Below, piece after piece: positions 2,512 through 18,447 of a stretch of DNA of 64,000 nt. Source of the DNA: Pantoea sp. SOD02. Its GTDB lineage: Bacteria > Pseudomonadota > Gammaproteobacteria > Enterobacterales > Enterobacteriaceae. Under the pieces are notes generated by a model. The model was given only the letters and a program-made list of their open reading frames with translations. It was not told where the DNA came from and searched no databases. The position numbers and the translations under genes were made by a program. Position 1 is the stretch's first letter; every line of letters begins with the position of its first letter. The DNA is taken from positions 1 through 64,000 of the forward strand of contig NZ_CP102605.1 of assembly GCF_024707505.1 (NCBI RefSeq), given 5' to 3'.

Positions 2512-2531
2512 CCTACATGTGTGGAGCAAGT

Positions 2532-3731
2532 ATGGCTAACGATGAGAAGCAAGTTCTGAAGGTTGCACAACGTTCAGAAAGAATGCTGATGAGCCTGACA
2601 GAACAGATTCAGGCGCAGAAAGAAGAGTTGCGGGAAAACACGTTCTATCAGGTTTACGCTAAAGCGGCGTTAGCCAAACTGCCAAAATTGACGCGTGCGA
2701 GTGTGGATTACGCTGTAAACGAGATGGAAGAGAACGGTTATCCGTTCGATAAGCGTGCAGCGGGCAGCTCAACCAAGTATGCGATGTCGATTCAGAACAT
2801 CATTGATATCTATCACCATCGCGGCGTGCCTAAATATCGCGACCGCCATCATGAAGCCTTCAGCATCTTTGTCGGCAACCTTAAAGGCGGCGTGTCGAAA
2901 ACGGTCTCTACCGTTTCGCTGGCACATGCATTGCGCGCCCATCCGCATCTGCTGTTTGAAGATTTGCGTATTCTGGTCATCGATCTGGACCCGCAATCCT
3001 CCGCCACCATGTTCCTGAACCACCAACGTTCAGTAGGATTAGTGGAAGCTACCGCTGCGCAGGCGATGCTGCAGAACGTCAGCCGTGAAGAGTTGCTCAA
3101 CGAATTTATCGTTTCATCGATTATTCCGGGCGTTGATGTGCTGCCGGCGTCAATTGATGACGCCTTTATTGCCTCGCGTTGGGAAGAGCTGTGCGCCGCT
3201 CACCTGCCGGATCAGAACATCCACGCGGTGCTGTATGACAATGTGGTGGCCAAGCTGAAGAAAGATTACGACTTTATCTTTATCGATAGCGGCCCGCATC
3301 TTGATGCCTTCCTGAAGAACGCCATTGCCGCTTCGGACTTGCTAATGACACCGGTACCTCCCGCGCAGGTGGATTTCCACTCCACGTTGAAGTACTTAAC
3401 GCGTTTACCGGAGTTGATTGGCATCATTGAAGAATCGGGTGCAGCCTGCCGTTTGCAGGGCAACATCGGCTTTATGTCTAAACTATCGAATAAAGCGGAC
3501 CACAAGCTGTGTCACAGCCTGGCGAAAGAGATTTTTGGTGGCGATATGCTCGATGCTGCCTTACCACGCCTGGATGGCTTTGAGCGCTGCGGAGAGTCGT
3601 TTGACACGGTTATCTCGGCCAATCCATCAACCTACGTGGGCAGCACCGAGGCCTTAAAGAATGCGCGTTCAGCGGCGGAAGATTTCGCGAAAGCCGTATT
3701 TGACCGTATTGAATTCATTCGCCTGAACTGA
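2532..3731 (+). CDS. parA: Type Ia plasmid partition ATPase ParA
   Basis: ATPase that drives segregation of the plasmid with ParB. The 399-residue length and the N-terminal extension of about 110 residues before the ATPase domain are typical of P1 ParA/SopA (type Ia), in which the extension carries a DNA-binding region used for autorepression. The deviant Walker A motif KGGVSKT is at residues 118-124, with the signature lysine, and the Walker A' stretch LVIDLDPQSS is near 148-157. I chose the ATG at 2532 because GGAG lies five bases upstream; an in-frame ATG at 2517 has no such site. parB follows after seven bases. Confidence 0.94.
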   Translation: MANDEKQVLKVAQRSERMLMSLTEQIQAQKEELRENTFYQVYAKAALAKLPKLTRASVDYAVNEMEENGYPFDKRAAGSSTKYAMSIQNIIDIYHHRGVPKYRDRHHEAFSIFVGNLKGGVSKTVSTVSLAHALRAHPHLLFEDLRILVIDLDPQSSATMFLNHQRSVGLVEATAAQAMLQNVSREELLNEFIVSSIIPGVDVLPASIDDAFIASRWEELCAAHLPDQNIHAVLYDNVVAKLKKDYDFIFIDSGPHLDAFLKNAIAASDLLMTPVPPAQVDFHSTLKYLTRLPELIGIIEESGAACRLQGNIGFMSKLSNKADHKLCHSLAKEIFGGDMLDAALPRLDGFERCGESFDTVISANPSTYVGSTEALKNARSAAEDFAKAVFDRIEFIRLN

Positions 3732-3738
3732 GGTTACT

Positions 3739-4710
3739 ATGAGCGCAAAAAGAATCACCATTGGCCGAACCTTCAGCCAGACACCATTGCAGACTGAGGA
3801 AAGCGCCGATGGCCATTCTCAGACCTTTATCCTGGCGACGGGTAAACGCGCCCTGTTCACGCTGGAACACATCCCTGCGAAAGAAATCGAAGAGAAAACT
3901 TTCGTTAAGATGGAAACCAATGGCCGCGATCAGTCTGGCCTGACGCCAGAATCGCTGCGCGACATCATTCGTACTATTAAATTGCAGCAATTTTTCCCGG
4001 CGATTGGCGTAAAGCGTGACGACCGCATTGAGATTCTCGATGGTTCACGCCGTCGTGCTGCGGCTCTTCACTGCAAAACCGGGCTGGATGTGCTGGTCAC
4101 TGAAGTGGCTATCTCTGCGGAAGAAGCGCGTCGTTTAGCGCAGGATATTCAGACCGCGCGCGAGCACAACCTGCGTGAAGTGGGCATGCGTTTGCTGGCA
4201 CTTAAAGATGGCGGATTATCGCAAAAGGAAATTGCGCAAAGCGAAGGACTTTCTCAGGCCAAAGTAACGCGTGCATTGCAAGCCGCAAGCGTGCCGCTTG
4301 AGCTGGTGACGCTGTTCCCGAATCATTCTGAGCTGACTTATCCAGACTATAAATCGCTGCTGCAAGCTTACGAGAAGCTGCAGGAAACCGGACAAACGGT
4401 TGATGCACTGATCGATACCATCGGCATGGATGTTGATACCGTATGCGCACGCGATGGTTTAGCGGAAGATGAAGTGAAGAACGGCATTCTGCGTTTAGTG
4501 CGTAACGGCAGCCAGACGCTGATTCAGTCACCGGCGAAAGACAAAACCGTTGCGACGCCTTTGTGGAGCTTCGCCGATAAAGATCGTTTTGCGCGTAAGA
4601 AAACGCGCGGACGCATGTTCAGCTACGAGTTTAATCGCCAGTCAAAAGAGTTGCAGGAAGAGCTGGATAGAGTGATTAACGAGACGCTCAACAAGTATCT
4701 AAATCAGTAA
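3739..4710 (+). CDS. parB: Plasmid partition protein ParB
   Basis: Centromere-binding partner of ParA, 323 residues. The central region has the ParB-type nucleotide motif DGSRRRAAAL (residues 101-110) and a helix-turn-helix at about 160-181 (SQKEIAQSEGLSQAKVTRAL). The C-terminal third should be the dimer domain. Overall it resembles the P1 ParB/SopB group. Its ribosome site (TGAGG) overlaps the parA stop codon, so the two are translationally linked, and a strong terminator follows at once. The centromere is not certain; candidate repeats lie directly downstream (4769-5146). Confidence 0.93.
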   Translation: MSAKRITIGRTFSQTPLQTEESADGHSQTFILATGKRALFTLEHIPAKEIEEKTFVKMETNGRDQSGLTPESLRDIIRTIKLQQFFPAIGVKRDDRIEILDGSRRRAAALHCKTGLDVLVTEVAISAEEARRLAQDIQTAREHNLREVGMRLLALKDGGLSQKEIAQSEGLSQAKVTRALQAASVPLELVTLFPNHSELTYPDYKSLLQAYEKLQETGQTVDALIDTIGMDVDTVCARDGLAEDEVKNGILRLVRNGSQTLIQSPAKDKTVATPLWSFADKDRFARKKTRGRMFSYEFNRQSKELQEELDRVINETLNKYLNQ

Positions 4711-5160: not shown

Positions 5161-7116
5161 TTACTCAATCAACGCCAGCGCTGATGAAAATTGCCAGACT
5201 GCATCGCGCACGCGCACCGGTTTATTAATCAACCCCAACGCATAAAAACGATCGGCGATTGTCTGCTGCTCTTTAATCACTTCGAAGGCCATCGCACGCG
5301 TTTTGTGGCTGCGACGTGTCAATGCGCGTTCTACTGACGCAACTTCCAATCCCAGCTCCTGAGCCAGTAATATTGAAGCTTCGTGACGATGACTATCGAT
5401 GAACAAACCCGTTTGCTGCAAACTTTCCACCAGCTGTCTGAGGATGTCATCGTGTTGTTCAACGTAATCTCGTCGCGCCAGATAGAACTGATGATTGCGT
5501 ACGCGCCCTTCACCATTAACCAAAATCCGCAGCTCGGGATTGCTCTCAGCGGCGCTGAGCAACGGATCCCACATCATCCACGCATCAACCGAGAGATAAT
5601 CACTGGCGGTCAGTGGATACTTAGGCGGCGTATACACCACTTTGAGTTCATCCAGGCCAATGCCCGCTTCTTCCAATAACTGCAGCAGTAGCCAGTGAAC
5701 GTTCGAGCCTTTATTAACCGATATGCGCTTACCACGCAGATCGCTGATAGTGCGAATATCACTGTTATGCGGCACCACAATGCCAACGCTGCTTGGCGCC
5801 GGTGGCTCCCACGCGATATAAGTCACCGCATTGCCGCTCGCCTGGGCGAAGATCGGCGGCACTTCGCCGGTAGTACCAAAGTCGATTTCGTTGTTTTGCA
5901 GTGCATACAGCAGCTGTGGCCCAGCAGGAAACTCACTCCACAGCACGCTAATGCCTTGCTGAGCGAAGCAGTGTTCGAGGCTTTGGCGGGCTTTTAACAC
6001 GCCGAGATTACCAAACTTCTGATATCCGATTCGTAACTCGCGTTCCTGCGTTCCATGCGCATTGGATGAAGACGTAGAAACAAGCGCTTTGCGCCGTCCT
6101 TTAATCATTCCCTGATTCGCCAGATGCGTGCGTAAGGTGTGGCGGCTAATACCCAGCAGCGCGGCGGCCTGGGTTTGATTCTGATCTGTCATCGAAAGCG
6201 CATTGCTAATCAGGCTGCTGATAACGCGATCAAACAGTTGCTGCGGCTGGTTGGTCAGCTGTTGCTGAAGATAACTATCGAGCGTTGAATCGTTTGACTC
6301 GTTAAAGCCATGTTCACTGTAACCAGCAAGTCGCAGCTGTGCGGGCGTCAACGTCTCTTCGCGGCTCAACAACACGGCGTTGTGCAGCGTGTTCTCCAGT
6401 TCACGGATATTGCCCGGCCAGCTGTATTCGCGCAGCACTTCAAGCGCATCAGGTGACAGACGTCGTGCCGGACGGCCTAAGCGTCGTGCGTAGAGAGCGA
6501 GGAAGTGTTGCGCCAATAGTGGAATGTCTTCACGGCGCTGACGCAGCGGCGGCAGCGGAACCACCGCAATATTCAGGCGATAGAACAGATCTTCGCGGAA
6601 ACGTCGTTCACGAATCGCCTGTGCTAAATCCACATGCGTAGCCGCGATAACCCGCACATCCACCTTGATCGCTTTGCGCGAGCCCACACGCGTAATCTCG
6701 CGCTCCTGCAACACACGCAACAATTTAACCTGCAGTGAAGGGCTAAGCTCACCAATCTCATCCAGCAGCAAGGTGCCGCCTTGCGCGGATTCAAACCAGC
6801 CGGGATGAGACTGCGTCGCGCCGGTAAAAGCCCCTTTCTCATGGCCAAACAACTCGGCTTCAGCCAGACTTTCCGTTAACGCACCGCAGTTAACCGCCAG
6901 AAAAGGGCCGTGACGCCGCTGGCTGTGATGATGCAGATAACGCGCCACCACTTCTTTGCCTGTGCCGGTTTCGCCGACAATCAGTACGGTGGCATCCGTG
7001 GGGGCGAATTTATCCAGCAGCGATTGAAACGCCAGAGAGGCGGGATCGACTAAGCGCGGAGAATCGGTGTGATTATTAAAATTGGTTAGCATGGCATTGA
7101 GTCCGTTAACGAGCAT
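5161..7116 (-). CDS. Sigma-54 activator fused to an SsuA-like ligand-binding domain
   Basis: Transcription activator of 651 residues with three parts. Residues about 25-245 are a sigma-54 AAA+ domain: Walker A GETGTGKE (48-55), the sigma-54 loop GAFTGA (95-100) and Walker B GTLLLDE (114-120). A Fis-type helix-turn-helix is at about 315-337. Residues 360-651 are a periplasmic-binding-protein fold of the SsuA/NMT1 type, with [11 protein letters not shown] and an FAQA segment closely matching the SsuA-like protein at 17396-18343. There is no N-terminal sensor and no signal peptide, so the binding domain should act in the cytoplasm, probably as ligand sensor. The divergent ssuD-like operon has a sigma-54 promoter. 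The start is uncertain: residue 9 is another Met. It recalls SfnR-type activators, which lack the extra domain. Confidence 0.9.
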
Positions 7117-7173
7117 ATCGCTACGCTAAATGCTCACGCCAACTATTAACACCATGTAAAAAGCATAAGCAGT

Positions 7174-7218
7174 TGCATATGCAGCAATAGCTGTTGCGTC
7201 ATAGTTGCAATTGCAACT
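7174..7218. promoter_or_regulatory. Candidate upstream activator sites
   Basis: TGCATATGCA (7174-7183) and the perfect 16-base palindrome AGTTGCAATTGCAACT (7203-7218) share the half-site TTGCA; CTGTTGCG lies between them. They are about 65-110 bases upstream of the sigma-54 promoter, the usual place for enhancer sites of this activator class, and close to the start of the regulator gene itself. Assignment to that regulator is inference. Confidence 0.5.
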
Positions 7219-7281
7219 CGATATGCCGTAATCAACAACCTTAACCCTCTGAAATACAGCACTTCACGCTAATCAACAACC

Positions 7282-7297
7282 TGGCACGCTTTCTGCT
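7282..7297 (+). promoter_or_regulatory. Sigma-54 (-24/-12) promoter of the ssuD-like operon
   Basis: TGGCACGCTTTCTGCT has GG at 7283-7284 and GC at 7295-7296, exactly ten bases apart, with the consensus TGGCACG at -24. It is 70 bases before the ssuD-like start codon. The divergent sigma-54 activator makes the assignment coherent. Confidence 0.8.
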
Positions 7298-7366: not shown

Positions 7367-8539
7367 ATGGTCGATTCCGCGAACGATAAAATTAATGTCT
7401 TCTGGTTTTTACCGACGCACGGTGATGGACGCTACCTCGGCACCACTCAAGGCGGACGCCCGGTCGATTTACCCTACTTACAGCAAGTGGCGCTTGCCGC
7501 CGACAATCTTGGCTTCTACGGCGTATTAATTCCCACTGGCAAAAGCTGCGAAGATTCCTGGCTGGTTGCCTCGGCGTTAGCGCCTATCACCAAACGTCTG
7601 CGCTATTTAGTGGCGGTGCGCCCGGGCCTGCAGCCGCCAACGCTGGCAGCTCGCATGGCGACAACGCTTGATCGTCTATCCGAAGGACGTTTATTGATTA
7701 ACGTGGTGACCGGTGGCGATCCCGTCGAGAACAAAGGCGACGGCATTTTCCTCAACCACAGTGAACGTTATGAAGTCACCAAAGAATTCCTCGACGTTTA
7801 CAGCCGCCTGATGCGCGGGGAGAAAGTGGATTACGAAGGCAAACATATCCACGTTGAAGGTGCGGAGGTGCTGTTCCCGCCGGTGCAGGAGAATGGTCCG
7901 CCGCTCTATTTTGGTGGTTCATCTGAGGCGGCGATTGATGTGGCTGCGGAACAGATCGATACCTATCTCACCTGGGGCGAGCCGCCAGCACAGGTTGCCG
8001 AGAAGCTGGAAGTGGTGCGCGCGCGTGCGCAACAGCGCGGACGTAAACTTGAATACGGCATTCGTTTGCACGTGATTGTGCGCGAGACCGAAGAAGAAGC
8101 CAAAGCGGCGGCAGATAAGTTGATTGGCCATCTTGATGAAGAGACTATTGCGCAGGCGCAGAAAATCTTTGCGCGTATGGATTCTGCCGGTCAGGCGCGG
8201 ATGAGCGCATTGCATCAAGGTTCGCGCGACAATCTTTATATCTCGCCGAATCTCTGGGCTGGCGTTGGTCTGGTACGCGGTGGCGCGGGCACAGCGCTGG
8301 TCGGCAGCCCTGAGCAAGTGGCTGAACGTATCCGTGAATATCAGGCGTTGGGCGTCACCAATTTTATTCTGTCCGGATATCCGCATCTTGAAGAAGCGCA
8401 TCGCGTGGCCGAATTGTTGTTGCCGCTGCTCCCGCTGGCGAATGCGCAACAGCAGCGTGAACGCACCATTAATACCGGGCCGTTTGGTGAAACCATTGGT
8501 GGTGATAAGCGTCCTTCAAAACAGACGAGCGCCAGCTAA
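7367..8539 (+). CDS. ssuD: FMNH2-dependent alkanesulfonate monooxygenase, SsuD-like
   Basis: Luciferase-like flavin monooxygenase of 390 residues, close in length and sequence to E. coli SsuD (381). Shared stretches include [15 protein letters not shown] near the N-terminus, [17 protein letters not shown], the LNHSERYE segment and the YFGGSSE and [22 protein letters not shown] blocks. SsuD splits alkanesulfonates to aldehyde and sulfite using FMNH2 and O2, and so supplies sulfur. AGGA lies upstream of the ATG. It is the first gene behind the sigma-54 promoter. No ssuE-type FMN reductase was recognised in the window, so reduced flavin must come from elsewhere or from the unusual oxidoreductase that follows. 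Substrate range may differ from E. coli SsuD. Confidence 0.93.
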
Positions 8540-8553
8540 TGCAGGAGAAGGCA

Positions 8554-9960
8554 ATGGCAACGACACAGGTAATCATTGTTGGCGGTGGCTTTAGCGGCAC
8601 AGCGTTGGCAATTCATCTCGCACGAACCTCATCGAGCAGATTACTGATTACAGTGGTCGAACCGCGCGCCAGTCTCGGCGGCGGCGTTGCCTATTCCACG
8701 CAGGAGCCCGCACACCGCATCAACGTGCCCGCTTCGCGCATGCAGTTAAGTGGAGAAGAGCAGGGCGCGTTTGATCACTGGTATCGCCAGCAGCCGGAAT
8801 GTTCACTGGATTCAGTAGCGCACTGCGACGACGGCTCGGTCTATCCGCAGCGCAGCCTGTTCGGTCGCTATCTGGCAGAACAGTTTGCGGAAGCTGCGCA
8901 GGCGTATCCGCACATCACGCTGCGACATGTGCAGGCCAGCGCCGTGGCCTGGGAAGGCGAGCAGCTGTTACTCAGTAACGGCGAAACGTTGCAAGGTGAT
9001 GTGCTGGCGTTAGCGATCAGTCATCCGCCGCCTTCGTTGCCGCGGGCGCTGCAACCGTTCTCGGCGCATCCGGCATTGATTGCTAATCCGTGGCAACACG
9101 GCGTACTGGACGCCATCGTTCCAGAATCCTCGGTGGCGATTATCGGTACCGGCTTAAGTATGGCGGATGTGGTGGCTTCACTGGGCACCAGACAGCATCG
9201 TGGCCCGTTAATCGCATTCTCGCGCCGTGGGCAGCTTTCACGCGACAACCTAAGCGGTGAGTGGCCTGAATGGACGTTAGCCCCGCAGGAAGCGTCCAGC
9301 GCGCGTCTGTGGCTGCGACATATCCGCGCCGAGGTCGCGCGTTCCGCTGAACAGGATTTGCCGTGGCAGCGTGTGCTCGATCAGGTGCGTGTGCAAGGTC
9401 AGGATATCTGGCAATCGCTGCCTTTGCGCGAGCAGCAGCGCTTTGTCCGCCATTTGCGCTCGTGGTGGGACGTGCATCGCTATCGTATAGCACCGCAGGT
9501 ATCAGCGGTGATCAACGCACGTCGTCAACAGGGCAATCTGAAGGTGCTGGCCGCGCGCCTTATCGACATCTCTAAACTCGGCAATCAGCTGCAAATAACG
9601 CTATGCCCGCGCGATGGTGCCAGCGAAACCCATCGCCTCGATCATCTGATTGTCACCACCGGTCCCGGCCATGAAGCCTTAACCGCCAGCCAGCCACTGC
9701 TGCAATCGCTCAGTCGGCAAGGTTTGATTCGTGCTGACCAGCTCGGTTTTGGTATTGATGTCGACAGCCAGTCGCGCACGCTAAATCTCACCGGCCAACC
9801 CAACGCACGACTGTTTGTTGTCGGTCCCGCTGCGCGTGCGCGCTTCGGTGAATTGATGGGATTGCCGCAGGTCGCCGATCATGCCGCCGCCGTGGCGCAG
9901 CATATTTTACATGAACTGCATATCGCTCATGCCGAGCGATGTCCCCCTTCAGCGCTTTAA
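8554..9960 (+). CDS. FAD/NAD(P)-binding oxidoreductase
   Basis: Protein of 468 residues with two dinucleotide-binding motifs. VIIVGGGFSGTALA at the N-terminus is the FAD site, followed by the RINVPASRMQL and GxVYPQRSLFGRYL segments seen in the NAD_binding_9 type of FAD/NAD(P) proteins; VAIIGTGLSMADV near residue 200 should bind NAD(P)H. The substrate is unknown. It sits between two FMNH2-dependent monooxygenases where a flavin reductase would be expected, so a redox partner role is possible but unproven. I chose the ATG at 8554 because AGGAG at 8543-8547 precedes it; an upstream ATG at 8539 overlaps the previous stop. Confidence 0.83.
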   Translation: MATTQVIIVGGGFSGTALAIHLARTSSSRLLITVVEPRASLGGGVAYSTQEPAHRINVPASRMQLSGEEQGAFDHWYRQQPECSLDSVAHCDDGSVYPQRSLFGRYLAEQFAEAAQAYPHITLRHVQASAVAWEGEQLLLSNGETLQGDVLALAISHPPPSLPRALQPFSAHPALIANPWQHGVLDAIVPESSVAIIGTGLSMADVVASLGTRQHRGPLIAFSRRGQLSRDNLSGEWPEWTLAPQEASSARLWLRHIRAEVARSAEQDLPWQRVLDQVRVQGQDIWQSLPLREQQRFVRHLRSWWDVHRYRIAPQVSAVINARRQQGNLKVLAARLIDISKLGNQLQITLCPRDGASETHRLDHLIVTTGPGHEALTASQPLLQSLSRQGLIRADQLGFGIDVDSQSRTLNLTGQPNARLFVVGPAARARFGELMGLPQVADHAAAVAQHILHELHIAHAERCPPSAL

Positions 9961-10034
9961 TCTCTCAACATCCTAAAAATTAACTGACGAACGCCGGGTC
10001 GTAACACGATCACGGCCTCGCTATGGAGATTGCT

Positions 10035-11429
10035 ATGCCATCGCAACGTGAAATTCGCTTGAACGCATTTGATATGAACTGTGTCGGACACCAGTCGCCG
10101 GGTTTGTGGGCGCATCCGCGTGACCGTTCCTGGCAATACAAAGATTTGGAGTATTGGGTCGATTTGGCGCGCCTGCTGGAGCGCGGCAAATTTGACGGCC
10201 TGTTTATCGCCGACGTGCTCGGCGTTTACGACGTACTGAACGGCAACGGCGATGCGGCGATCCGCCAGGCGACGCAGGTGCCGGTCAACGATCCGCTGGC
10301 GTTGATTACGCCCATGGCGCTGGTCACTGAACATCTCGGCTTTGGTCTCACCGCGTCGCTGTCGTTTGAACATCCCTATCCGTTTGCGCGCCGCTTATCG
10401 ACGCTCGATCACCTGACCAAAGGCCGCATCGGCTGGAACATCGTCACCTCGTATCTGGAGAGCGGGGTGCGCAACATTGGGCATAAAACCCAGACCGATC
10501 ACGACAGCCGCTACGATTATGCCGACGAGTATCTGCAAGTGGTGTACAAACTGCTGGAAGGCAGCTGGGAGCAGGATGCGGTATTGCGTGACCGTGAACG
10601 CCGCATTTTCAGCGACCCGCGCAAAATCCATCCCATCAATCATCAGGGCACCTTCTTCAACGTGCCGGGCATTCACCTGTGTGAACCGTCACCACAGCGC
10701 ACGCCGGTGCTGTATCAAGCGGGTGCATCGAGTCGCGGCAAACAGTTTGCGGCAGAACATGCTGAATGCGTGTTTGTTGCTGCGCCGTCAAAAGTGCTGC
10801 TGAAGAAAACCGTCGCTGATATTCGCCGCCGCGCGGCGGAAGCGGGGCGCGATCCTTACAGCATCAAAATCTTCAATCTGCAAACCGTGATTGTCGGCGA
10901 AACCGATCTGGCGGCGCAGGCGAAGTGGAAAGAGTACACCAGCTGGGTCAGCTACGAAGGCGCGCTGGCGCTGGTGTCGGGTTGGACCGGCATCGACTTC
11001 GGCCAGTATCAGCCGGATCAGGTACTGAAATATATCCACACCAACGCCATTCAATCGGCGGTCGAAACCTTCTCCACCGCCGATCCCGACCGTCAGTGGA
11101 CGGTAAAAGCGCTGGCGGATTGGGTTGGGATTGGCGGCTTTGGCCCGCTGATTGTCGGCAGCGCGGAAACCGTCGCGGATGAGCTGCAAAGCTGGGTGGA
11201 AGAGACCGATGTCGATGGCTTCAACTTCGCCTACGCACTGACGCATGAAACCTTTGAAGATGTGGTGGAGCTGCTGATCCCGGAACTGCAAAAACGTGGC
11301 GTCTACAAAAAAGAGTATGCGCAGGGCACGCTGCGCGAGAAGTTATTCGCCGCCGGTCCGCAGCTGCAGGCACCGCATCCGGGCGCGGGCTATCGCGTTA
11401 AATCCTCCACGCTGCAGGAGGTCTCATGA
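10035..11429 (+). CDS. NtaA/SnaA/DszA-type flavin-dependent monooxygenase
   Basis: Luciferase-fold monooxygenase of 464 residues in the long NtaA/SnaA/DszA group. Hallmarks are the N-terminal LNAFDMNCVGHQSPGLW, SFEHPYPFARRLSTLDHLTKGRIGWNIVTS, and PVLYQAGASSRGKQFAAEHAE. Members use FMNH2 to attack small sulfur or amine compounds, such as sulfones, dimethyl sulfide or nitrilotriacetate. Position in the sulfonate operon favours an organosulfur substrate, but the compound cannot be told from sequence. The start at 10035 has GGAG six bases upstream; the in-frame ATG at 10023 has none. The stop overlaps the start of the transporter ATPase by four bases. Confidence 0.88.
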   Translation: MPSQREIRLNAFDMNCVGHQSPGLWAHPRDRSWQYKDLEYWVDLARLLERGKFDGLFIADVLGVYDVLNGNGDAAIRQATQVPVNDPLALITPMALVTEHLGFGLTASLSFEHPYPFARRLSTLDHLTKGRIGWNIVTSYLESGVRNIGHKTQTDHDSRYDYADEYLQVVYKLLEGSWEQDAVLRDRERRIFSDPRKIHPINHQGTFFNVPGIHLCEPSPQRTPVLYQAGASSRGKQFAAEHAECVFVAAPSKVLLKKTVADIRRRAAEAGRDPYSIKIFNLQTVIVGETDLAAQAKWKEYTSWVSYEGALALVSGWTGIDFGQYQPDQVLKYIHTNAIQSAVETFSTADPDRQWTVKALADWVGIGGFGPLIVGSAETVADELQSWVEETDVDGFNFAYALTHETFEDVVELLIPELQKRGVYKKEYAQGTLREKLFAAGPQLQAPHPGAGYRVKSSTLQEVS

Positions 11430-12445
11430 TCGAAATAGATAACCTCAGCAAACACTATCGCGCGCCCGACGGCCGCATCACTGAGGTGCTGAAATCCATC
11501 AGCCTGCAGGTGCCGCAAGCCAACATTACCGCCGTTGTTGGGCCGAGCGGCGCGGGTAAATCGACGCTGGCGAAGTGCATAAGCTTGCTGGAGCAACCGA
11601 GCGCCGGCAGCATACGCGTTAACGGCAGCGATCTCTCGCGGCTGGATGGCGAAGCGCTGCGTCAGGCGCGTCGTTCAATTGGCACCGTTTTCCAGTCTTC
11701 CGCGCTGCTGCAACGCAAAACCGCGTGGGAGAACATCGCCTTGCCGCTGCACTATCTCGGCGTGGTGGATCGCGATATCGCCGCACGCGTGGGCGAATTG
11801 CTCGACAGCGTCGGTCTCAGCCACAAAGCCAAAGCCTATCCCGGCCAGCTTTCCGGTGGTCAGCGGCAGCGTATTGGCATCGCGCGGGCGCTGGCGTTGC
11901 GCCCGTCAGTGTTGCTGGCGGATGAGGCCACCTCAGGACTCGATCCCGAAGCCACCGTCACCGTGCTCGACCTGCTAAAAAAACTGCGAGATGACTACAA
12001 GCTGGCGATAGTACTGATCACCCATGAAATGGATGCGGTGCGTCAGGCGGCGGATGCGGTAGCGGAAATTCGCGATGGCCAAATCGTGCAGTACGGCGTG
12101 GTGAAAGAGTTGCTGGCGCAGCCAGATTCGTTGCTGGGACAGCGCCTGTTCCCGCTGGCGGCGCAGGCGGGCGATGCCGAACTGGTGTTGCAGCTCAGCT
12201 ATCGCACCGATGTGCCGGTCGCCAGCGACTGGATATCGCGCCTCAGCCAGCAGTTTGCTTTGCGGATCGATCTGCTCGGTGCGCACGTTGAACAGGTGAA
12301 CGGTCTGCAAGCGGGCCGCCTTAAGGTGGGCATTCACTATCAGCAGGAACGCGTGCCGCTGGCGCGTTTGCTGTCGCAGCTTGAACAGCTGGGCTTAGTT
12401 GCCAGCGTTTCCGGCAGCGTGTTGCCGTTGCGGGAGGCGGTATGA
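11426..12445 (+). CDS. MetN-like ABC transporter ATPase
   Basis: ATP-binding subunit of 339 residues. Walker A GPSGAGKST is at 39-47, the signature LSGGQ at 142-146, Walker B VLLADE at 162-167 and the switch histidine at 200. The last 90 residues resemble the NIL regulatory domain of MetN, which binds substrate and inhibits transport in methionine importers. It overlaps the genes on both sides by four bases, so it is in one operon with the monooxygenase and the permease. Because of this context, the imported molecule may be a sulfur compound other than methionine. Confidence 0.9.
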   Translation: MIEIDNLSKHYRAPDGRITEVLKSISLQVPQANITAVVGPSGAGKSTLAKCISLLEQPSAGSIRVNGSDLSRLDGEALRQARRSIGTVFQSSALLQRKTAWENIALPLHYLGVVDRDIAARVGELLDSVGLSHKAKAYPGQLSGGQRQRIGIARALALRPSVLLADEATSGLDPEATVTVLDLLKKLRDDYKLAIVLITHEMDAVRQAADAVAEIRDGQIVQYGVVKELLAQPDSLLGQRLFPLAAQAGDAELVLQLSYRTDVPVASDWISRLSQQFALRIDLLGAHVEQVNGLQAGRLKVGIHYQQERVPLARLLSQLEQLGLVASVSGSVLPLREAV

Positions 12446-13140
12446 GCGTATCAGTGATGAGTCAGGATACGCCGTGGCCAGAAATCCCGGCGTTGATGCT
12501 GCCCGCTCTGGGCGAAACCGCATTGATGGTGGTGATCGTGATGCTGTTCGTGGTCACCTTCGGCGGCATCGTCGGTGTGGTGCTGTTTAACACCTCATCG
12601 CGCGGTCTGTTTCCGCATCGCGGTATTAACCGGGTGCTGAGTTGGATTGTGAACATGGGACGTTCGCTGCCGTTTCTGGTGCTGATGGCGGCCATCATTC
12701 CGTTCACCTTCTGGCTAACCGGCACCACCATCGGTATTCCCGCCGCCGTTGTGCCTATGATCGCCGCAGGCATTCCGTTCTTTGGCCGTCTGGTGGACAA
12801 CGCGCTGCGTGAGCTGCCTGCCGAAGTCACGGCGGTGGGTTTGGTATGCGGCGGTTCGCGCTGGCAGATCATCCGCTCGGCACAACTCATTGAAGCGCTA
12901 CCGGCGATTGTTGCGGCGGTGACGCTCAACCTGATCTCAATGATTGAGTACTCCGCGATTGCCGGCACCATCGGCGCGGGCGGGATCGGTTATCTGGCGG
13001 TGGTGTACGGTTATCAGCGCTTCGACAACCACATCATGATCGCCACCATCGTGGTGCTAATCGCCCTCATTCAAACCATTCAATTTCTCGGCGACCGTTT
13101 GGTCACCGCATTACGCCATCCTCAGGGGACATCATTATGA
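12442..13140 (+). CDS. MetI-like ABC transporter permease
   Basis: Inner-membrane permease of 232 residues with about five or six hydrophobic segments and the conserved cytoplasmic loop ALRELPAEVTAVGLVCGGSR, where the coupling helix contacts the ATPase. The sequence AGTIGAGGIGYLAVVYGYQRF at the C-terminal side is typical of MetI. The start overlaps the ATPase stop by four bases and has GGAGG upstream; the end overlaps the next gene by four bases. Confidence 0.9.
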   Translation: MSVSVMSQDTPWPEIPALMLPALGETALMVVIVMLFVVTFGGIVGVVLFNTSSRGLFPHRGINRVLSWIVNMGRSLPFLVLMAAIIPFTFWLTGTTIGIPAAVVPMIAAGIPFFGRLVDNALRELPAEVTAVGLVCGGSRWQIIRSAQLIEALPAIVAAVTLNLISMIEYSAIAGTIGAGGIGYLAVVYGYQRFDNHIMIATIVVLIALIQTIQFLGDRLVTALRHPQGTSL

Positions 13141-14012
13141 CAACACAAGATTTCGAACTGCGTAAAACCCGCCGCTGGCCGTGGCTGCTACTGATTATAG
13201 TGGTCGTTGTACTCGCAGCAGGCGGCTGGTTCTGGCGCGGCCAACAGGCGCAGGCGGTGGTATTTGGTACCACGCTGAAAGTGCATTTTGAACCGGCGAT
13301 GGCGGGTGAGCAGAAGCTGATCGAATACGTTGGTGAACACATCGCGCCGGATTACGGCCTGAAGCTGGAAGCGGTTGGCGTGCAGGATCCGGTGCAAGCC
13401 GACCGTGCGGTAGCGGAAGGGCAATATGCTGCGACGGTGTATCAGCATCAATGGTGGCTGAAGCAAGTGGTGGATGCCAACGGCTTTGCGCTGACCTCAA
13501 CGCTGCCGCTATTCCAGTGGGCGTTTGGCATCTATTCCGATCGCTACACGTCGGTGGCGGATCTGCCGCAGGGCGCGACCATTGTGGTGCCGGATGACGG
13601 CGCCAATCAGGGCCAGGCATTATGGTTGCTGGCGCGTCAGGGCTTAATCACGCTCGATCCTAACGTCGAGCCGCGCACGGCCAAACTGAAGAACATTGTC
13701 GGCAATCCGCACGGCTTCGTGTTTAAAGAGCTCGATCTGCTGACCATGCCGCGTGCGCTCAATTCGGTGGATGCGGCGATTGGTTACGTCTCGCAATTCG
13801 ACGCCGGTAAAGTGCCACGCGAAAAAGGCATTCTCTTCCCGCCTGCACCGCGCACTTTCGCCTCTCAGCTGGTGATTGGCACACCTTATCTGGACCAGGA
13901 AAACATCGAGAAGCTGAAAAAAGCCTTCTCCGATCCGCGCGTCCAGCAGTGGTTGAAGACCACCGACGATCCGCTGGTAAAAGGCGTGCTGGTGCCGGTC
14001 TCAGCCGAGTAA
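13137..14012 (+). CDS. MetQ-like binding protein with an N-terminal membrane anchor
   Basis: Substrate-binding protein of the MetQ/NlpA type, 291 residues. LKVHFEPAMAGEQKLIEYV starts the binding fold, and VVPDDGANQGQALWLLARQGLI and the LDLLTMPRAL segment follow family patterns. The N-terminus is odd: about 14 charged or polar residues, then a long hydrophobic stretch (WLLLIIVVVVLAAGGWFW) without a lipobox cysteine. MetQ proteins are usually lipoproteins, so here the anchor is probably an uncleaved membrane helix. It is the last gene of the MetNIQ-like set and is followed by a terminator. Confidence 0.87.
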   Translation: MTTQDFELRKTRRWPWLLLIIVVVVLAAGGWFWRGQQAQAVVFGTTLKVHFEPAMAGEQKLIEYVGEHIAPDYGLKLEAVGVQDPVQADRAVAEGQYAATVYQHQWWLKQVVDANGFALTSTLPLFQWAFGIYSDRYTSVADLPQGATIVVPDDGANQGQALWLLARQGLITLDPNVEPRTAKLKNIVGNPHGFVFKELDLLTMPRALNSVDAAIGYVSQFDAGKVPREKGILFPPAPRTFASQLVIGTPYLDQENIEKLKKAFSDPRVQQWLKTTDDPLVKGVLVPVSAE

Positions 14013-14189: not shown

Positions 14190-15629
14190 ATGAGTTCTCT
14201 TCCTTTAGAAAACACCATCCCGGTTTCCGAACCGGTACGTTCGGTCAGTGACGTGGCAAGACTGATCAACACTCGCAGCAAAAATGACAACTACGCGCGC
14301 ATGATTGTGTTCCTCGCGCTCGGCGGCGTGTTTCTCGACGCCTACGATCTCACCACGCTGTCGTACGGCATCGATGATGTGGTGCGTGAATTTCAGCTCT
14401 CGCCGCTGCTCACCGGTTTAGTCACCTCCTCAATTATGGTTGGCACCATTGTCGGTAATCTGGTGGGCGGTTGGCTGACGGATAAATATGGCCGCTATTC
14501 GGTGTTTATGGCCGACATGCTGTTCTTTGTGGTTTCAGCGATTGCGGCGGGCTTAGCGCCGAACGTCTGGGTGCTGATTGGCGCGCGCTTCCTGATGGGC
14601 GTCGGTGTCGGGATCGATCTGCCGGTGGCGATGTCGTATTTGGCGGAGTTCTCCAAATTCGCCGGTAAAGGCAACAAAGCCGCACGACTCGCAGCCTGGT
14701 GCCCGATGTGGTACGCCGCGTCAACGCTGTGCTTCCTGTTGATCTTCGCGCTCTACTTCCTGCTGCCGAAAGAGCATCTTGACTGGCTGTGGCGCGCGTC
14801 GCTGCTGTTCGGTGCGGTACCGGCGTTGCTAATCATCGCGGTGCGCAGCAAATTCATGAACGAATCGCCCCTTTGGGCGGCGAATCAGGGCGATCTGAAA
14901 TCGGCGGTGCGCATCCTGCGTGATTCCTACGGCATCCATGCACACGAAGCGGAACATCAGGCGCCACCGGCCGCTGCTGCGCCGAAAGTGAGTTTCCGCG
15001 TGCTGTTTGAGAAACCGTGGCGCGAACGCACCATCGTCGCGGGCGTGATGAACATCTGTATCTCATTTGAATACACCGCCATTGCTTTCTTCTTGCCGTC
15101 GATTCTGGCGCAGTTCCTCGGCGCGGGCGTGTTTGAAACCATCTCCGCCTCGCTGGGCCTCAACGCACTGTTCGCCTTCACCGGTGGCCTGCTCGGCATG
15201 CGTCTGGCGTGGAAATATCCGTCGCGTCACGTCGCCATCGCTGGCTTTGCCCTGCAATTCTTTGCGCTGATCGCGCTGGCGTTGATAGGTCATCCGGAAG
15301 CCATCGCCGGAATCGTCTTTGCGGTATTGATGCTCGGTTTGTGGCTGTTTGCTGAAGGCTTCGGCCCGGGCGCGCAGCTGATGGTTTATCCGGCGCTTTC
15401 CTATCCAACCTCAATTCGCGCGACCGGCGTAGGCTTCAGCCGCGCGCTTTCCGGCATCGGCAGTGCGTTAGCACTGTTCATCCTGCCGATTCTGCAGGCC
15501 GCGCTCGGCACCAACATGTTTTGGGTGGTTTCGCTGGCAGCGATCATCCCGATCTTCTTCCTGTTGGCGGTGCGACACGAGCCCACGCTGCATGACATCG
15601 ACGATCTTTCACATCAGGAGTCACCATGA
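14190..15629 (+). CDS. MFS transporter
   Basis: Major facilitator of 479 residues with about 12 hydrophobic helices. The loop motif GGWLTDKYGRYSVF between helices 2 and 3 is the MFS signature, and DAYDLTTLSYGIDDVV in helix 1 with the RFLMGVGVGIDLPV segment resembles the metabolite/aromatic-acid:H+ symporter and sugar-porter side of the family. The substrate cannot be told. It has its own 130-base upstream region after a terminator, and its stop overlaps the start of the next gene by four bases, so the two form an operon. The likely role is uptake of the compound handled by the flavoprotein that follows. Confidence 0.88.
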   Translation: MSSLPLENTIPVSEPVRSVSDVARLINTRSKNDNYARMIVFLALGGVFLDAYDLTTLSYGIDDVVREFQLSPLLTGLVTSSIMVGTIVGNLVGGWLTDKYGRYSVFMADMLFFVVSAIAAGLAPNVWVLIGARFLMGVGVGIDLPVAMSYLAEFSKFAGKGNKAARLAAWCPMWYAASTLCFLLIFALYFLLPKEHLDWLWRASLLFGAVPALLIIAVRSKFMNESPLWAANQGDLKSAVRILRDSYGIHAHEAEHQAPPAAAAPKVSFRVLFEKPWRERTIVAGVMNICISFEYTAIAFFLPSILAQFLGAGVFETISASLGLNALFAFTGGLLGMRLAWKYPSRHVAIAGFALQFFALIALALIGHPEAIAGIVFAVLMLGLWLFAEGFGPGAQLMVYPALSYPTSIRATGVGFSRALSGIGSALALFILPILQAALGTNMFWVVSLAAIIPIFFLLAVRHEPTLHDIDDLSHQESP

Positions 15630-16840
15630 GTTTACTGGCAACAGGTACCGATTATGAGGCGCTGGCAGCGCACTTCCGACCGATCTTCACGCGCATCGCT
15701 GAAGGAACGGTAGCACGCGAGCGGGAACGCATTTTGCCGCATCAGCCGATTAACTGGCTGAAAGAGGCGGGATTCGGCACGGTGCGCATCCCAAAAGAGA
15801 AGGGCGGTTGGGGCGCATCGCTGCCGCAGCTGTTCCAGCTGTTAACCGAACTGGCGGAAGCCGACTCGAATCTGCCGCAGGCGCTGCGCGCCCATTTCGC
15901 CTTTGTCGAAGACCGGCTGAACCAACCGGACAGCGCGGAACGCGATCGCTGGTTTGGCCGTTTTATCGATGGCGAGCTGGTGGGCAGCGGCTGGACGGAA
16001 ATTGGCACGGTCAAACTCGGCGATGTCATTACGCGCGTCACGCCAGGCGAAAGCGGCTGGACGCTCAGCGGCGAGAAGTTTTACAGCACCGGCACGTTGT
16101 TCGCCGACTGGATTGACGTCTATGCACGCCGCAACGATAACCAGGGCGACGTCATCGCTCTGGTGAACGCTCACCAACCCGGCGTGACCCGTGAAGACGA
16201 CTGGGACGGATTTGGCCAGCGCTTAACCGGCAGTGGTACCACGCGTTTTGACAGTGCCCATGTCGAGCAGGAACACGTCTACGATTTCGCCACTCGCTTC
16301 CGTTATCAAACCGCCTTCTATCAGCATGTGTTGCTGGCAACGCTGGCGGGAATTGGTCGTGCGGTGGCACGCGATGGCGCACAGGCGGTGGCGGCGCGAA
16401 ATCGGGTTTACAGCCACGGCAACGGCGGCGTTACGCGTCAGGATGCGCAGATTCTTCAGGTCATCGGGGAGATCACCAGCCTGGCCTTTGCGGTAGAAGC
16501 CACGGTGATCCGCGCGACACATTCACTGCAATCAGCATATGTTGCCCACGTCAGCAGCGATGAAGCGCAAGTTGCCGCAGCGAATGTGCTGGCCGAAGCC
16601 GAAGCGGGCCAGGCGCAGGTGATCGCCAGCGAACTGGTAACGCGCGCCGCTACCGAGTTGTTCAACGCGTTGGGCGCATCAGATACGCGCGTCAGCAAAG
16701 CGCTGGATCGTCACTGGCGCAACGCGCGAACCGTATCGTCACATAATCCGGTGGTGTACAAAGCGCGCGATATCGGCGACTGGAAAGTGAATGGCACCGC
16801 CCCGACGGGGATTTGGCAGATTGGCAGAGGCGAGGGCTGA
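15626..16840 (+). CDS. Acyl-CoA dehydrogenase-fold monooxygenase, SfnB/DszC-like
   Basis: Flavoprotein of 404 residues with the acyl-CoA dehydrogenase fold. The segments FGTVRIPKEKGGWGASLPQL, VGSGWTEIG and LSGEKFYSTGTLFADWIDVYA match the SfnB/DszC group, which are FMNH2-dependent monooxygenases or related enzymes of sulfone and thiophene breakdown rather than fatty-acid dehydrogenases. I see no obvious acyl-CoA catalytic glutamate context, but this needs alignment. Its start overlaps the MFS gene. A cluster of REP palindromes follows. An iteron-like 14-base match lies inside the gene at 16522-16537. Confidence 0.86.
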   Translation: MSLLATGTDYEALAAHFRPIFTRIAEGTVARERERILPHQPINWLKEAGFGTVRIPKEKGGWGASLPQLFQLLTELAEADSNLPQALRAHFAFVEDRLNQPDSAERDRWFGRFIDGELVGSGWTEIGTVKLGDVITRVTPGESGWTLSGEKFYSTGTLFADWIDVYARRNDNQGDVIALVNAHQPGVTREDDWDGFGQRLTGSGTTRFDSAHVEQEHVYDFATRFRYQTAFYQHVLLATLAGIGRAVARDGAQAVAARNRVYSHGNGGVTRQDAQILQVIGEITSLAFAVEATVIRATHSLQSAYVAHVSSDEAQVAAANVLAEAEAGQAQVIASELVTRAATELFNALGASDTRVSKALDRHWRNARTVSSHNPVVYKARDIGDWKVNGTAPTGIWQIGRGEG

Positions 16841-17395: not shown

Positions 17396-18343
17396 TTACT
17401 TCTTATCCAGCGACCAGGTCGCGCTGCGCACATCCACTTTCACTGGCAACAGACCCACGCGCGTAAAGGTATCCGCTAACGCCTGCTGCTCATCAAACAC
17501 CTGTGGTGACATGCGCGATGCGCCATAAGGCAGACGTTTAATGGTGGTTTGCCAGATGGCTTTATCCAGGCCGGTCGATTTCGACAGAATCGCTGCCGCG
17601 TCATCCGGGTTCTTGTTCGCCCAATCGCTGAGTTTGCTCAGTTCATCAACTACCTGTTTCGCGGTATCAGGATGCCCTTCCGCAAACGGACGGCTGGCGA
17701 GATAGAAGGTGTAATGCGGCACCAATCCTTCTGCGTTGCGAATTTCACGCGCACCGGCGTTGGCTTCCACTTCTGCCAGGTACGGATCCCAAATTACCCA
17801 CGCATCAATTGCGCCTTTCTGGAACGCAGCGCGCGCATCGGCAGGCGGCAGATACACCGGCGTCACGTCTTTGTAGTTAAGTCCCGCATCTTCCAGCGCT
17901 TTCACTAGCAGATAGTTAACGTCAGAACCTTTGTTCAGGCCGACGCGTTTGCCTTTCAAATCGGCCACGCTCTTAATCGCGGAATCTTTCGGCACCACGA
18001 TGGCTTCCGTTTTCGGGTTAGCCGGAGAATGACCGAGATAGATCAAATCGGCTTTCGCGGCCTGCGCGAAGGCGGGCGGCGCATCGCCGGTAGCCGCCAA
18101 ATCAATGCTGCCGACGTTTAAGCCTTCCAGCATCTGCGGGCCAGCCGGGAATTCCACCCAACGGATAGCAATGCCTTCCTTTTTAAAGGTTTCATCCAGC
18201 GTGCCGCGATATTTCAGCAAGGCAAAGATGTTGGCTTTCTGATAGCCGATGGTGACGGTTTCTGGGTTAGCGGCAAAGGCGTATGTGGAGAGCAGGCCAA
18301 CGCTGAGAGCTAAAGCGCTCAGGACTGGAAATTTTGCTTTCAT
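17396..18343 (-). CDS. ssuA: Sulfonate-binding periplasmic protein, SsuA-like
   Basis: Periplasmic binding protein of 315 residues close in length to E. coli SsuA (319). A signal peptide ends at AFA-AN near residue 25. The mature part shows TIGYQKANIFALLK, WVEFPAGPQMLEGLNVGSIDL, GDAPPAFAQAAKADLIYLG and the AIDAWVIWDPYLAEVEA stretch, all typical of SsuA. There is no ssuC or ssuB beside it, so its permease and ATPase must be encoded elsewhere. I chose the ATG at 18343, where the signal peptide starts, over an upstream in-frame codon at 18379. Its closest relative in the window is the C-terminal domain of the sigma-54 regulator. It belongs functionally with the ssuD-like gene. Confidence 0.92.
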   Translation of the reverse strand: MKAKFPVLSALALSVGLLSTYAFAANPETVTIGYQKANIFALLKYRGTLDETFKKEGIAIRWVEFPAGPQMLEGLNVGSIDLAATGDAPPAFAQAAKADLIYLGHSPANPKTEAIVVPKDSAIKSVADLKGKRVGLNKGSDVNYLLVKALEDAGLNYKDVTPVYLPPADARAAFQKGAIDAWVIWDPYLAEVEANAGAREIRNAEGLVPHYTFYLASRPFAEGHPDTAKQVVDELSKLSDWANKNPDDAAAILSKSTGLDKAIWQTTIKRLPYGASRMSPQVFDEQQALADTFTRVGLLPVKVDVRSATWSLDKK

Positions 18344-18447
18344 GATGATTCTCGTGTGGTTTTTTTGCCACCTTAGCAAAGCCCTTATATAACCAATAAA
18401 TAACTAATTTCGATCGCTTATAACCGTTTTTTATGTGATCTGGATCA

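Follow-up and report, generated by a model that had tools for sequence, protein, structure and literature searches.

Sensor-less activators of the SfnR type leave open how cells recognise which organosulfur compound is present. SfnR of Pseudomonas is a sigma-54 activator of dimethyl sulfone and organosulfur genes, and in P. putida DS1 its expression is reportedly under CysB control. In the window analysed here (the first 64,000 nucleotides of contig NZ_CP102605.1 from Pantoea sp. SOD02, a plant-associated bacterium), a single unbroken open reading frame (5161..7116, reverse strand) encodes a 651-residue protein in which an AAA+ sigma-54 activator with a Fis-type helix-turn-helix (HTH) is continued by a domain of the SsuA family, and the locus raises the question of whether a transport binding protein has become the activator's internal sensor. 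If so, the fusion family would answer the recognition problem directly.

The domain order was determined using Pfam and NCBIfam models together with a reading of the sequence by eye. Sigma54_activat matches residues 31-184 (2.7e-68) and AAA_lid_14 residues 192-263, placing the AAA+ sigma-54 interaction domain and its lid at residues 31-263 (6328..7026, reverse strand), with Walker A, the GAFTGA loop and Walker B (LLLDEIGEL) all intact. The Fis-type DNA-binding domain HTH_8 follows at residues 302-329 (6130..6213, reverse strand; 26 bits against a cut-off of 22), and rpoN is present in the window's own genome. Beyond a linker that alignment and dN/dS reveal as variable and fast-evolving (about residues 337-359; 6040..6108, reverse strand), the SsuA-family substrate-binding domain occupies residues 361-644 (5185..6036, reverse strand), where NMT1 matches residues 384-568 (40.5 bits, cut-off 20.5) and TIGR01728 (SsuA_fam) residues 361-641 (186.6 bits, over its cut-off of 163.5); NF008588 (PRK11553) matches residues 345-644 at 250.6, under its cut-off of 299, and a Methylocystis member of the fusion family scores 139.8 against TIGR01728, under the cut-off. 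This C-terminal piece also aligns over nearly its whole length with solved SsuA structures (3e4r, 9.7e-60; 2x26, 4.1e-55). No hydrophobic run was seen by eye ahead of the SsuA part, and the domain comes after the HTH, which sets it apart from an exported SsuA. The initial annotation had read the same architecture from the letters alone (AAA+ sigma-54 domain, Fis-type HTH and C-terminal SsuA-type domain without a signal peptide), and the Pfam, NCBIfam and structural matches all agree with it. Translation may in fact begin at Met9 and not at Met1, because the closest homologue with an annotation (L114, 642 aa) has its RefSeq start at that residue.

A fusion of this kind might be an error of assembly or annotation, or a gene in decay, and broken copies do exist: among the plasmid matches listed (the best 40 of 71), two are fragmented (CP093281 in 4 pieces and CP125156 in 2, both left unused), one Methylocystis copy is interrupted by an IS5-family element, and 4 of the 37 matches in the window's genus show one stop within the scored frame. 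Against this reading, a protein search of 72,556 plasmid records gave 71 that match the fusion protein at 1e-100 or below, each of them with a single place that accounts for no less than 80% of the query; in the window's genus, a full-length match is present in 37 of the 61 species genomes, its own counted; and dN/dS is low for both the AAA+HTH half and the SsuA half. The search for this domain order that had been proposed at the outset recovered the same full-length fusion in many other assemblies, so the fusion is not an assembly error, and we consider an artefact or a decaying gene next to impossible.

Sequence and comparison also reveal how far the fusion is conserved. The plasmid matches fall to Pantoea (64), Klebsiella (2), Methylocystis (2), Chimaeribacter (1), Azospirillum (1) and a record labelled 'Pseudomonas' (1), and Raoultella planticola likewise encodes the fusion. 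Under strict E-value limits, we found it in 4 of 394 genomes at the level of the order and in 3 of 398 at the level of the phylum, own genome included in each case and all from the same genus. With the Azospirillum protein as phylum-wide query, 12 of 398 genomes matched, of which 3, from one genus, hold the full fusion; in the other 9 the match stops ahead of the binding domain, and the three of these shorter proteins that were read end soon after the HTH. Among viral contigs, 4 loci match the AAA/HTH part only, and a search of phage records with the regulator-ssuD intergenic region returned no match. A candidate second fusion in another genome (L129, a 689-aa frame around an SsuA match) turned out to be an SsuA of the usual kind, preceded by a signal peptide. 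The 926,844-base contig that carries the window resembles a large plasmid, in line with related records from Pantoea; ParA- and ParB-family genes lie at window positions 2517-4710.

We next consider the origin of the two halves, using trees from which the near-identical fusion loci L091, L092, L114-L124 and L155 were omitted in all four cases. The AAA+HTH parts of 15 fusion rows (14 fusions plus the interrupted Methylocystis copy) form one group in the first AAA tree (SH-aLRT 91; 30 other rows used), and in the second (7 other rows) the fusion group is supported at 96/92 as a split from the SfnR-like group and at 90/89 as a fork. This half is sister to 9 SfnR-like rows in a joint clade at 100/100, where 'SfnR-like' is assigned by place in the tree, length and gene position, in a tree built without any experimentally studied SfnR. 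One SfnR-like gene, in Burkholderia pyrrocinia, adjoins msuE-sfnG-SfnB. SfnR-like proteins and the fusion are alike in lacking an N-terminal sensor, in their organosulfur neighbours and in their sigma-54-like promoters; they differ in that the two annotated SfnR-like relatives (368 and 386 aa, without an SsuA domain) end behind the HTH, whereas the fusion continues with residues 361-644 and so departs from the sensor-less state of SfnR-type activators. The SsuA parts of the same 15 rows, in the tree check that had been suggested for the C-terminal domain, likewise form one clade, at 100/100 in the first SsuA tree (without the window's free SsuA gene at 17396-18379) and at 99/96 in the second (with that gene, and with 13 long-branch or remote binding-protein loci omitted). 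Each half forms one clade, and both show the same three-way division (Azospirillum, Methylocystis and the enterobacteria). Most simply, the fusion would have arisen once, after which the two halves were inherited together and spread horizontally. The proposal that an SsuA-type domain was recruited onto an SfnR-like activator is consistent with this sister group and with its two annotated relatives that are without the domain.

The donor suggested in the initial annotation, the paralog at 17396-18343, did not hold up. This free-standing SsuA-family protein (17396..18379, reverse strand; identified by Pfam, NCBIfam and trees, with a signal peptide read by eye) belongs with the corresponding proteins that accompany the fusion in Klebsiella, Chimaeribacter and Pantoea. 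Their clade is separate from the fusions at 100/100 in both SsuA trees, of which the second includes the window protein itself, and the fusion is common to Alpha- and Gammaproteobacteria, so that we rejected the window protein as the immediate donor; a sister relation between this neighbour clade and the fusion clade was not rejected (p-AU 0.22). Among free proteins, those with the highest scores against the fusion domain group weakly with the fusions (66/84) and have the fusion domain's pocket signature. In three of their loci that were scanned, ssuC was present in 3/3, and ssuD lay beside the SsuA gene in both loci scanned for it; these ssuA-ssuD-ssuC loci belong to other bacteria. Of the 8 annotated enterobacterial loci, 7 have a free SsuA with a signal peptide near the fusion (the exception is the L103 stretch, where none is listed), and no SsuBC-type transporter is annotated beside this protein.

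In SsuA of X. citri, Gln36, Gly68, Gly86 and Ser141 hold the sulfonate, Ser141 by way of its hydroxyl group, and Trp185 is oriented towards the pocket (PMC3839906). The fusion domain is homologous over nearly its whole length to SsuA of E. coli (2x26) and X. citri (3e4r) and has the same contact residues save at position 141; it differs from both in having no signal peptide and in being joined to a DNA-binding activator. In the alignment, equivalents of Q36, G68, G86 and W185 are kept in 15/15 fusion rows, the interrupted Methylocystis copy included, and position 141 is Asn in all 15. This position is Asp in 8/8 free SsuA rows from fusion loci and varies among the remaining 27 (Asn in 7, Ser in 7, Asp in 6, other residues in 7), and therefore Asn141 is common to the fusions but not exclusive to them; six free SsuA rows carry the fusions' full pocket signature, QGGSNYW. 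With the ligand-contact residues kept, one excepted, sulfonate sensing by the domain is plausible, and the replacement of Ser141 by Asn means that ligand specificity may differ.

Across seven pairs, dN/dS is 0.018-0.090 for the SsuA part (5 of 7 pairs; the other two saturated) and 0.019-0.072 for the AAA+HTH part (6 of 7), compared with 0.15-0.44 for the linker (5 of 7). By this measure, purifying selection on the SsuA part is as strong as on the AAA half, and since its dN/dS matches that of AAA+HTH and contrasts with that of the linker, the domain is maintained, with a pocket that appears functional but tuned.

Divergent from the regulator lies a predicted operon on the forward strand headed by ssuD, which encodes an FMNH2-dependent alkanesulfonate monooxygenase (7367..8539; TIGR03565, 609.6 bits, cut-off 518.2) and is followed by an FAD/NAD(P)-binding protein (8539..9960, Pfam), an NtaA/DmoA-family flavin-dependent monooxygenase (10023..11429, TIGR03860 over its cut-off), a MetNIQ-like ABC transporter with ATPase, permease and NlpA-type lipoprotein (11426..14012, with the NCBIfam Met models under their cut-offs), and an MFS transporter together with an SfnB/DszC-like oxidoreductase of the acyl-CoA-dehydrogenase fold (14190..16840; 260.7 bits against an SfnB cut-off of 430.9). 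The monooxygenase gene overlaps the MetNIQ-like transporter (window 10023-14012). The regulator is divergent from ssuD in 8/8 annotated enterobacterial loci, with a 117-bp hypothetical gene separating the two in Klebsiella, and ssuD is followed in these 8 loci by a gene for an FAD-dependent oxidoreductase or FAD/NAD(P)-binding protein and then by an LLM-class monooxygenase, with sfnG inserted behind ssuD in Chimaeribacter. The MetNIQ-like transporter follows in 4 of the 8. By annotation or family scans, ssuD is found in 11/11 fusion loci examined, and sfnG occurs in the fusion loci of Azospirillum and Methylocystis as well as Chimaeribacter. The pairing of a MetNIQ-like transporter with an NtaA/DmoA-type monooxygenase suggests a sulfur substrate beyond simple alkanesulfonates.

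Control of this divergent ssuD operon by the fusion, as claimed initially, gains support from a predicted twin operator and sigma-54 promoter ahead of ssuD. Using pattern search and cross-locus comparison, we located two predicted operator palindromes, GTTGCATATGCAGC (7172..7185) and GTTGCAATTGCAAC (7204..7217), 32 bp apart from start to start, and a predicted sigma-54 promoter, CTGGCACGCTTTCTGCT (7281..7297, forward strand), which has 12 of 14 consensus letters and lies 69 bp ahead of the ssuD start. A predicted promoter with 11-13 of 14 consensus letters is found in 25/25 enterobacterial loci, and a palindrome pair with at most one mismatch and a spacing of 31 or 32 bp, its second palindrome 76-79 bp before the promoter (start to start), in 23/25, or in 22/24 distinct loci once the identical L002 and L117 are counted as one; these loci come mostly from one genus and are closely related, not independent. 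The Klebsiella pair is degraded (5 mismatches) and the Raoultella pair has 3, no better than chance pairs in the controls. The distant members are a better test of the operator than the related enterobacterial loci: in Azospirillum, one pair accompanied by a sigma-54 promoter precedes msuE and a second such pair precedes an amidohydrolase-ssuD operon, and Methylocystis also has two pairs, one before sfnG with a promoter and one before ssuD without a promoter scoring 12 or more. In the regulator's own upstream region we found neither a palindrome pair nor a sigma-54 promoter.

To what extent the pair stands out depends on how strictly it is matched. The 14 fusion loci, 351,491 bases in total, contain 7 pairs without a mismatch at spacings of 15-100 bp, and every one of them lies at 31-32 bp; the 86 control loci, which amount to 1,125,090 bases and count five SfnR-like loci among them, have no mismatch-free pair anywhere in that 15-100-bp range. 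At up to one mismatch, the fusion loci contain 14 pairs spaced 31-33 bp and 10 with a different spacing, of which some are repeated places within one coding region, and the controls hold 7 pairs at any spacing, 0 of them at 31-33 bp. At up to three mismatches the spacing is no longer distinctive, with 12 pairs at 32 bp vs. 11 at 27 bp. In the controls, each of the 11 pairs spaced 31-33 bp has 3 mismatches, and the fusion loci have 7 further 31-33-bp pairs elsewhere, one with 2 mismatches. Among the five SfnR-like loci (L106, L110, L111, L112 and L163), no 31-33-bp pair with at most 2 mismatches was found; three have one with 3. In the window's own genome, 7172-7217 is the sole perfect pair at 32-bp spacing among 18 places, two others having 2 mismatches and 15 having 3. 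We also considered the single palindrome as a distinctive signal and rejected it, as the lone motif is not enriched in the window (4 matches vs. 5.08 expected) and only near-perfect spaced pairs stand out.

Based on these results, we propose the following mechanism. A sensor-less SfnR-like activator would have gained a C-terminal SsuA domain once, before the spread among Alpha- and Gammaproteobacteria. Its HTH would bind the two GYTGCNNNNGCARC palindromes, about three helical turns apart, upstream of the sigma-54 promoter, which the AAA+ ring would open, so that ssuD and the rest of the divergent organosulfur operon are expressed. After import, a sulfonate or a closely related organosulfur compound would bind the cytoplasmic SsuA domain and close its clamp, and the ligand state would then alter the neighbouring modules, HTH and AAA+, on the twin operator, through either assembly or ATPase activity. 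Sequence comparison shows the fusion and its conservation, a single clade for each half, the retained pocket, and the conserved operator-like pair with its promoter. We infer the single gain, the binding of the pair by the fusion's own HTH, the sulfonate ligand, and both the sign and the route of the allosteric effect. An internal sensor for a sulfonate or related compound on an SfnR-like activator is well supported, and the explanation as a whole, from an activator of SfnR-like descent with an SsuA sensor to the twin operator and the ssuD promoter, strikes us as quite likely, our confidence being slightly lowered because the looser operator counts do not single out the spacing. In broader terms, it is likely that a transport binding protein became, in one event, the ligand-gated cytoplasmic C-terminal sensor of a sigma-54 activator, positioned beyond the DNA-binding domain, that substrate sensing was thereby added to SfnR-type organosulfur control, and that the fusion moved between Alpha- and Gammaproteobacteria, in many cases by way of large plasmids, and took its own operator code along.

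Two alternatives concern what the SsuA domain does. It may sense some other ligand, such as a sulfone, a sulfinate, a sulfur-containing amino-acid derivative taken up via the MetNIQ-like transporter, or a signal that represses, such as sulfate or a cysteine precursor; the LysR-type regulator CysB uses its binding-protein-like domain in this way. The Asn in place of Ser at position 141 in every fusion row would fit such a ligand, as would the operon's MetNIQ-like transporter and NtaA/DmoA-family and SfnB-like enzymes and the sfnG genes of the Azospirillum, Methylocystis and Chimaeribacter loci; nevertheless, the six free SsuA rows share the signature QGGSNYW, both of those scanned for ssuD and ssuC sit in ssuA-ssuD-ssuC loci, and ssuD accompanies the fusion in 11/11 loci, leaving this reading unlikely but worth keeping in view.

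A more radical departure from the sensor reading is that the domain has lost ligand binding altogether and plays a part in structure or in protein contacts, for example as a docking site for another cytoplasmic protein. A precedent comes from NrtC, whose C-terminal domain is NrtA-like and of the same broad anion-binding kind. In cyanobacteria, the C-terminal domain of this ABC ATPase is regulatory and acts together with PII in inhibiting nitrate uptake (PMC6603209). NrtC is a transporter subunit with a cytoplasmic regulatory C-terminal domain, whereas the fusion is a transcription activator, and a scaffold would not need Q36, G68, G86 and W185, which are invariant across 15 rows from two bacterial classes; we thus regard a ligand-free role as highly improbable.

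The preferred reading, a sulfonate-type sensor behind an SfnR-like activator, can be placed among known regulators. CysB and Cbl, of the LysR type, regulate sulfur genes from the cytoplasm and carry, C-terminal to the HTH, an effector domain that is binding-protein-like (type II), but they work with sigma-70 rather than through a sigma-54 AAA+ domain, and their effector domain is a distant fold relative of SsuA, not a homologue. NtrC, NorR, DmpR and PrpR share the AAA+ motor and Fis-type HTH, with the sensor ahead of the AAA+ domain, and LevR-type activators, which also share the motor, have C-terminal regulatory domains with an N-terminal HTH. Unlike both of these groups, the fusion has its sensor candidate behind an HTH of the C-terminal type, which would put the input of an NtrC-like activator behind its HTH.

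Each half of the protein is a known family; what is new is that the two are combined and that the sensor sits at the C-terminal end. In the literature searched, with a coverage that lacks most subscription journals and thus makes for weak evidence, we found no account of an AAA+ sigma-54 / HTH / SsuA architecture. If our reading is true, the fusion is a clean case of a transport protein turned intracellular sensor, and the family offers one predicted operator in the window's genome for testing.

Finally, we also observed how such genes are labelled in existing records. The second Methylocystis fusion copy (L113:5863-8730, Methylocystis iwaonis pSS37A-Re-1) is split by an IS5-family transposase gene between its AAA and SsuA parts, and the latter is annotated as a separate substrate-binding protein. 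Several fusion regulators (H2, H8, H12, H15, H20 and L109) carry the RefSeq name 'aliphatic sulfonate ABC transporter substrate-binding protein', which is likely a misannotation, and given such transporter labels some regulators of this kind have likely been overlooked.
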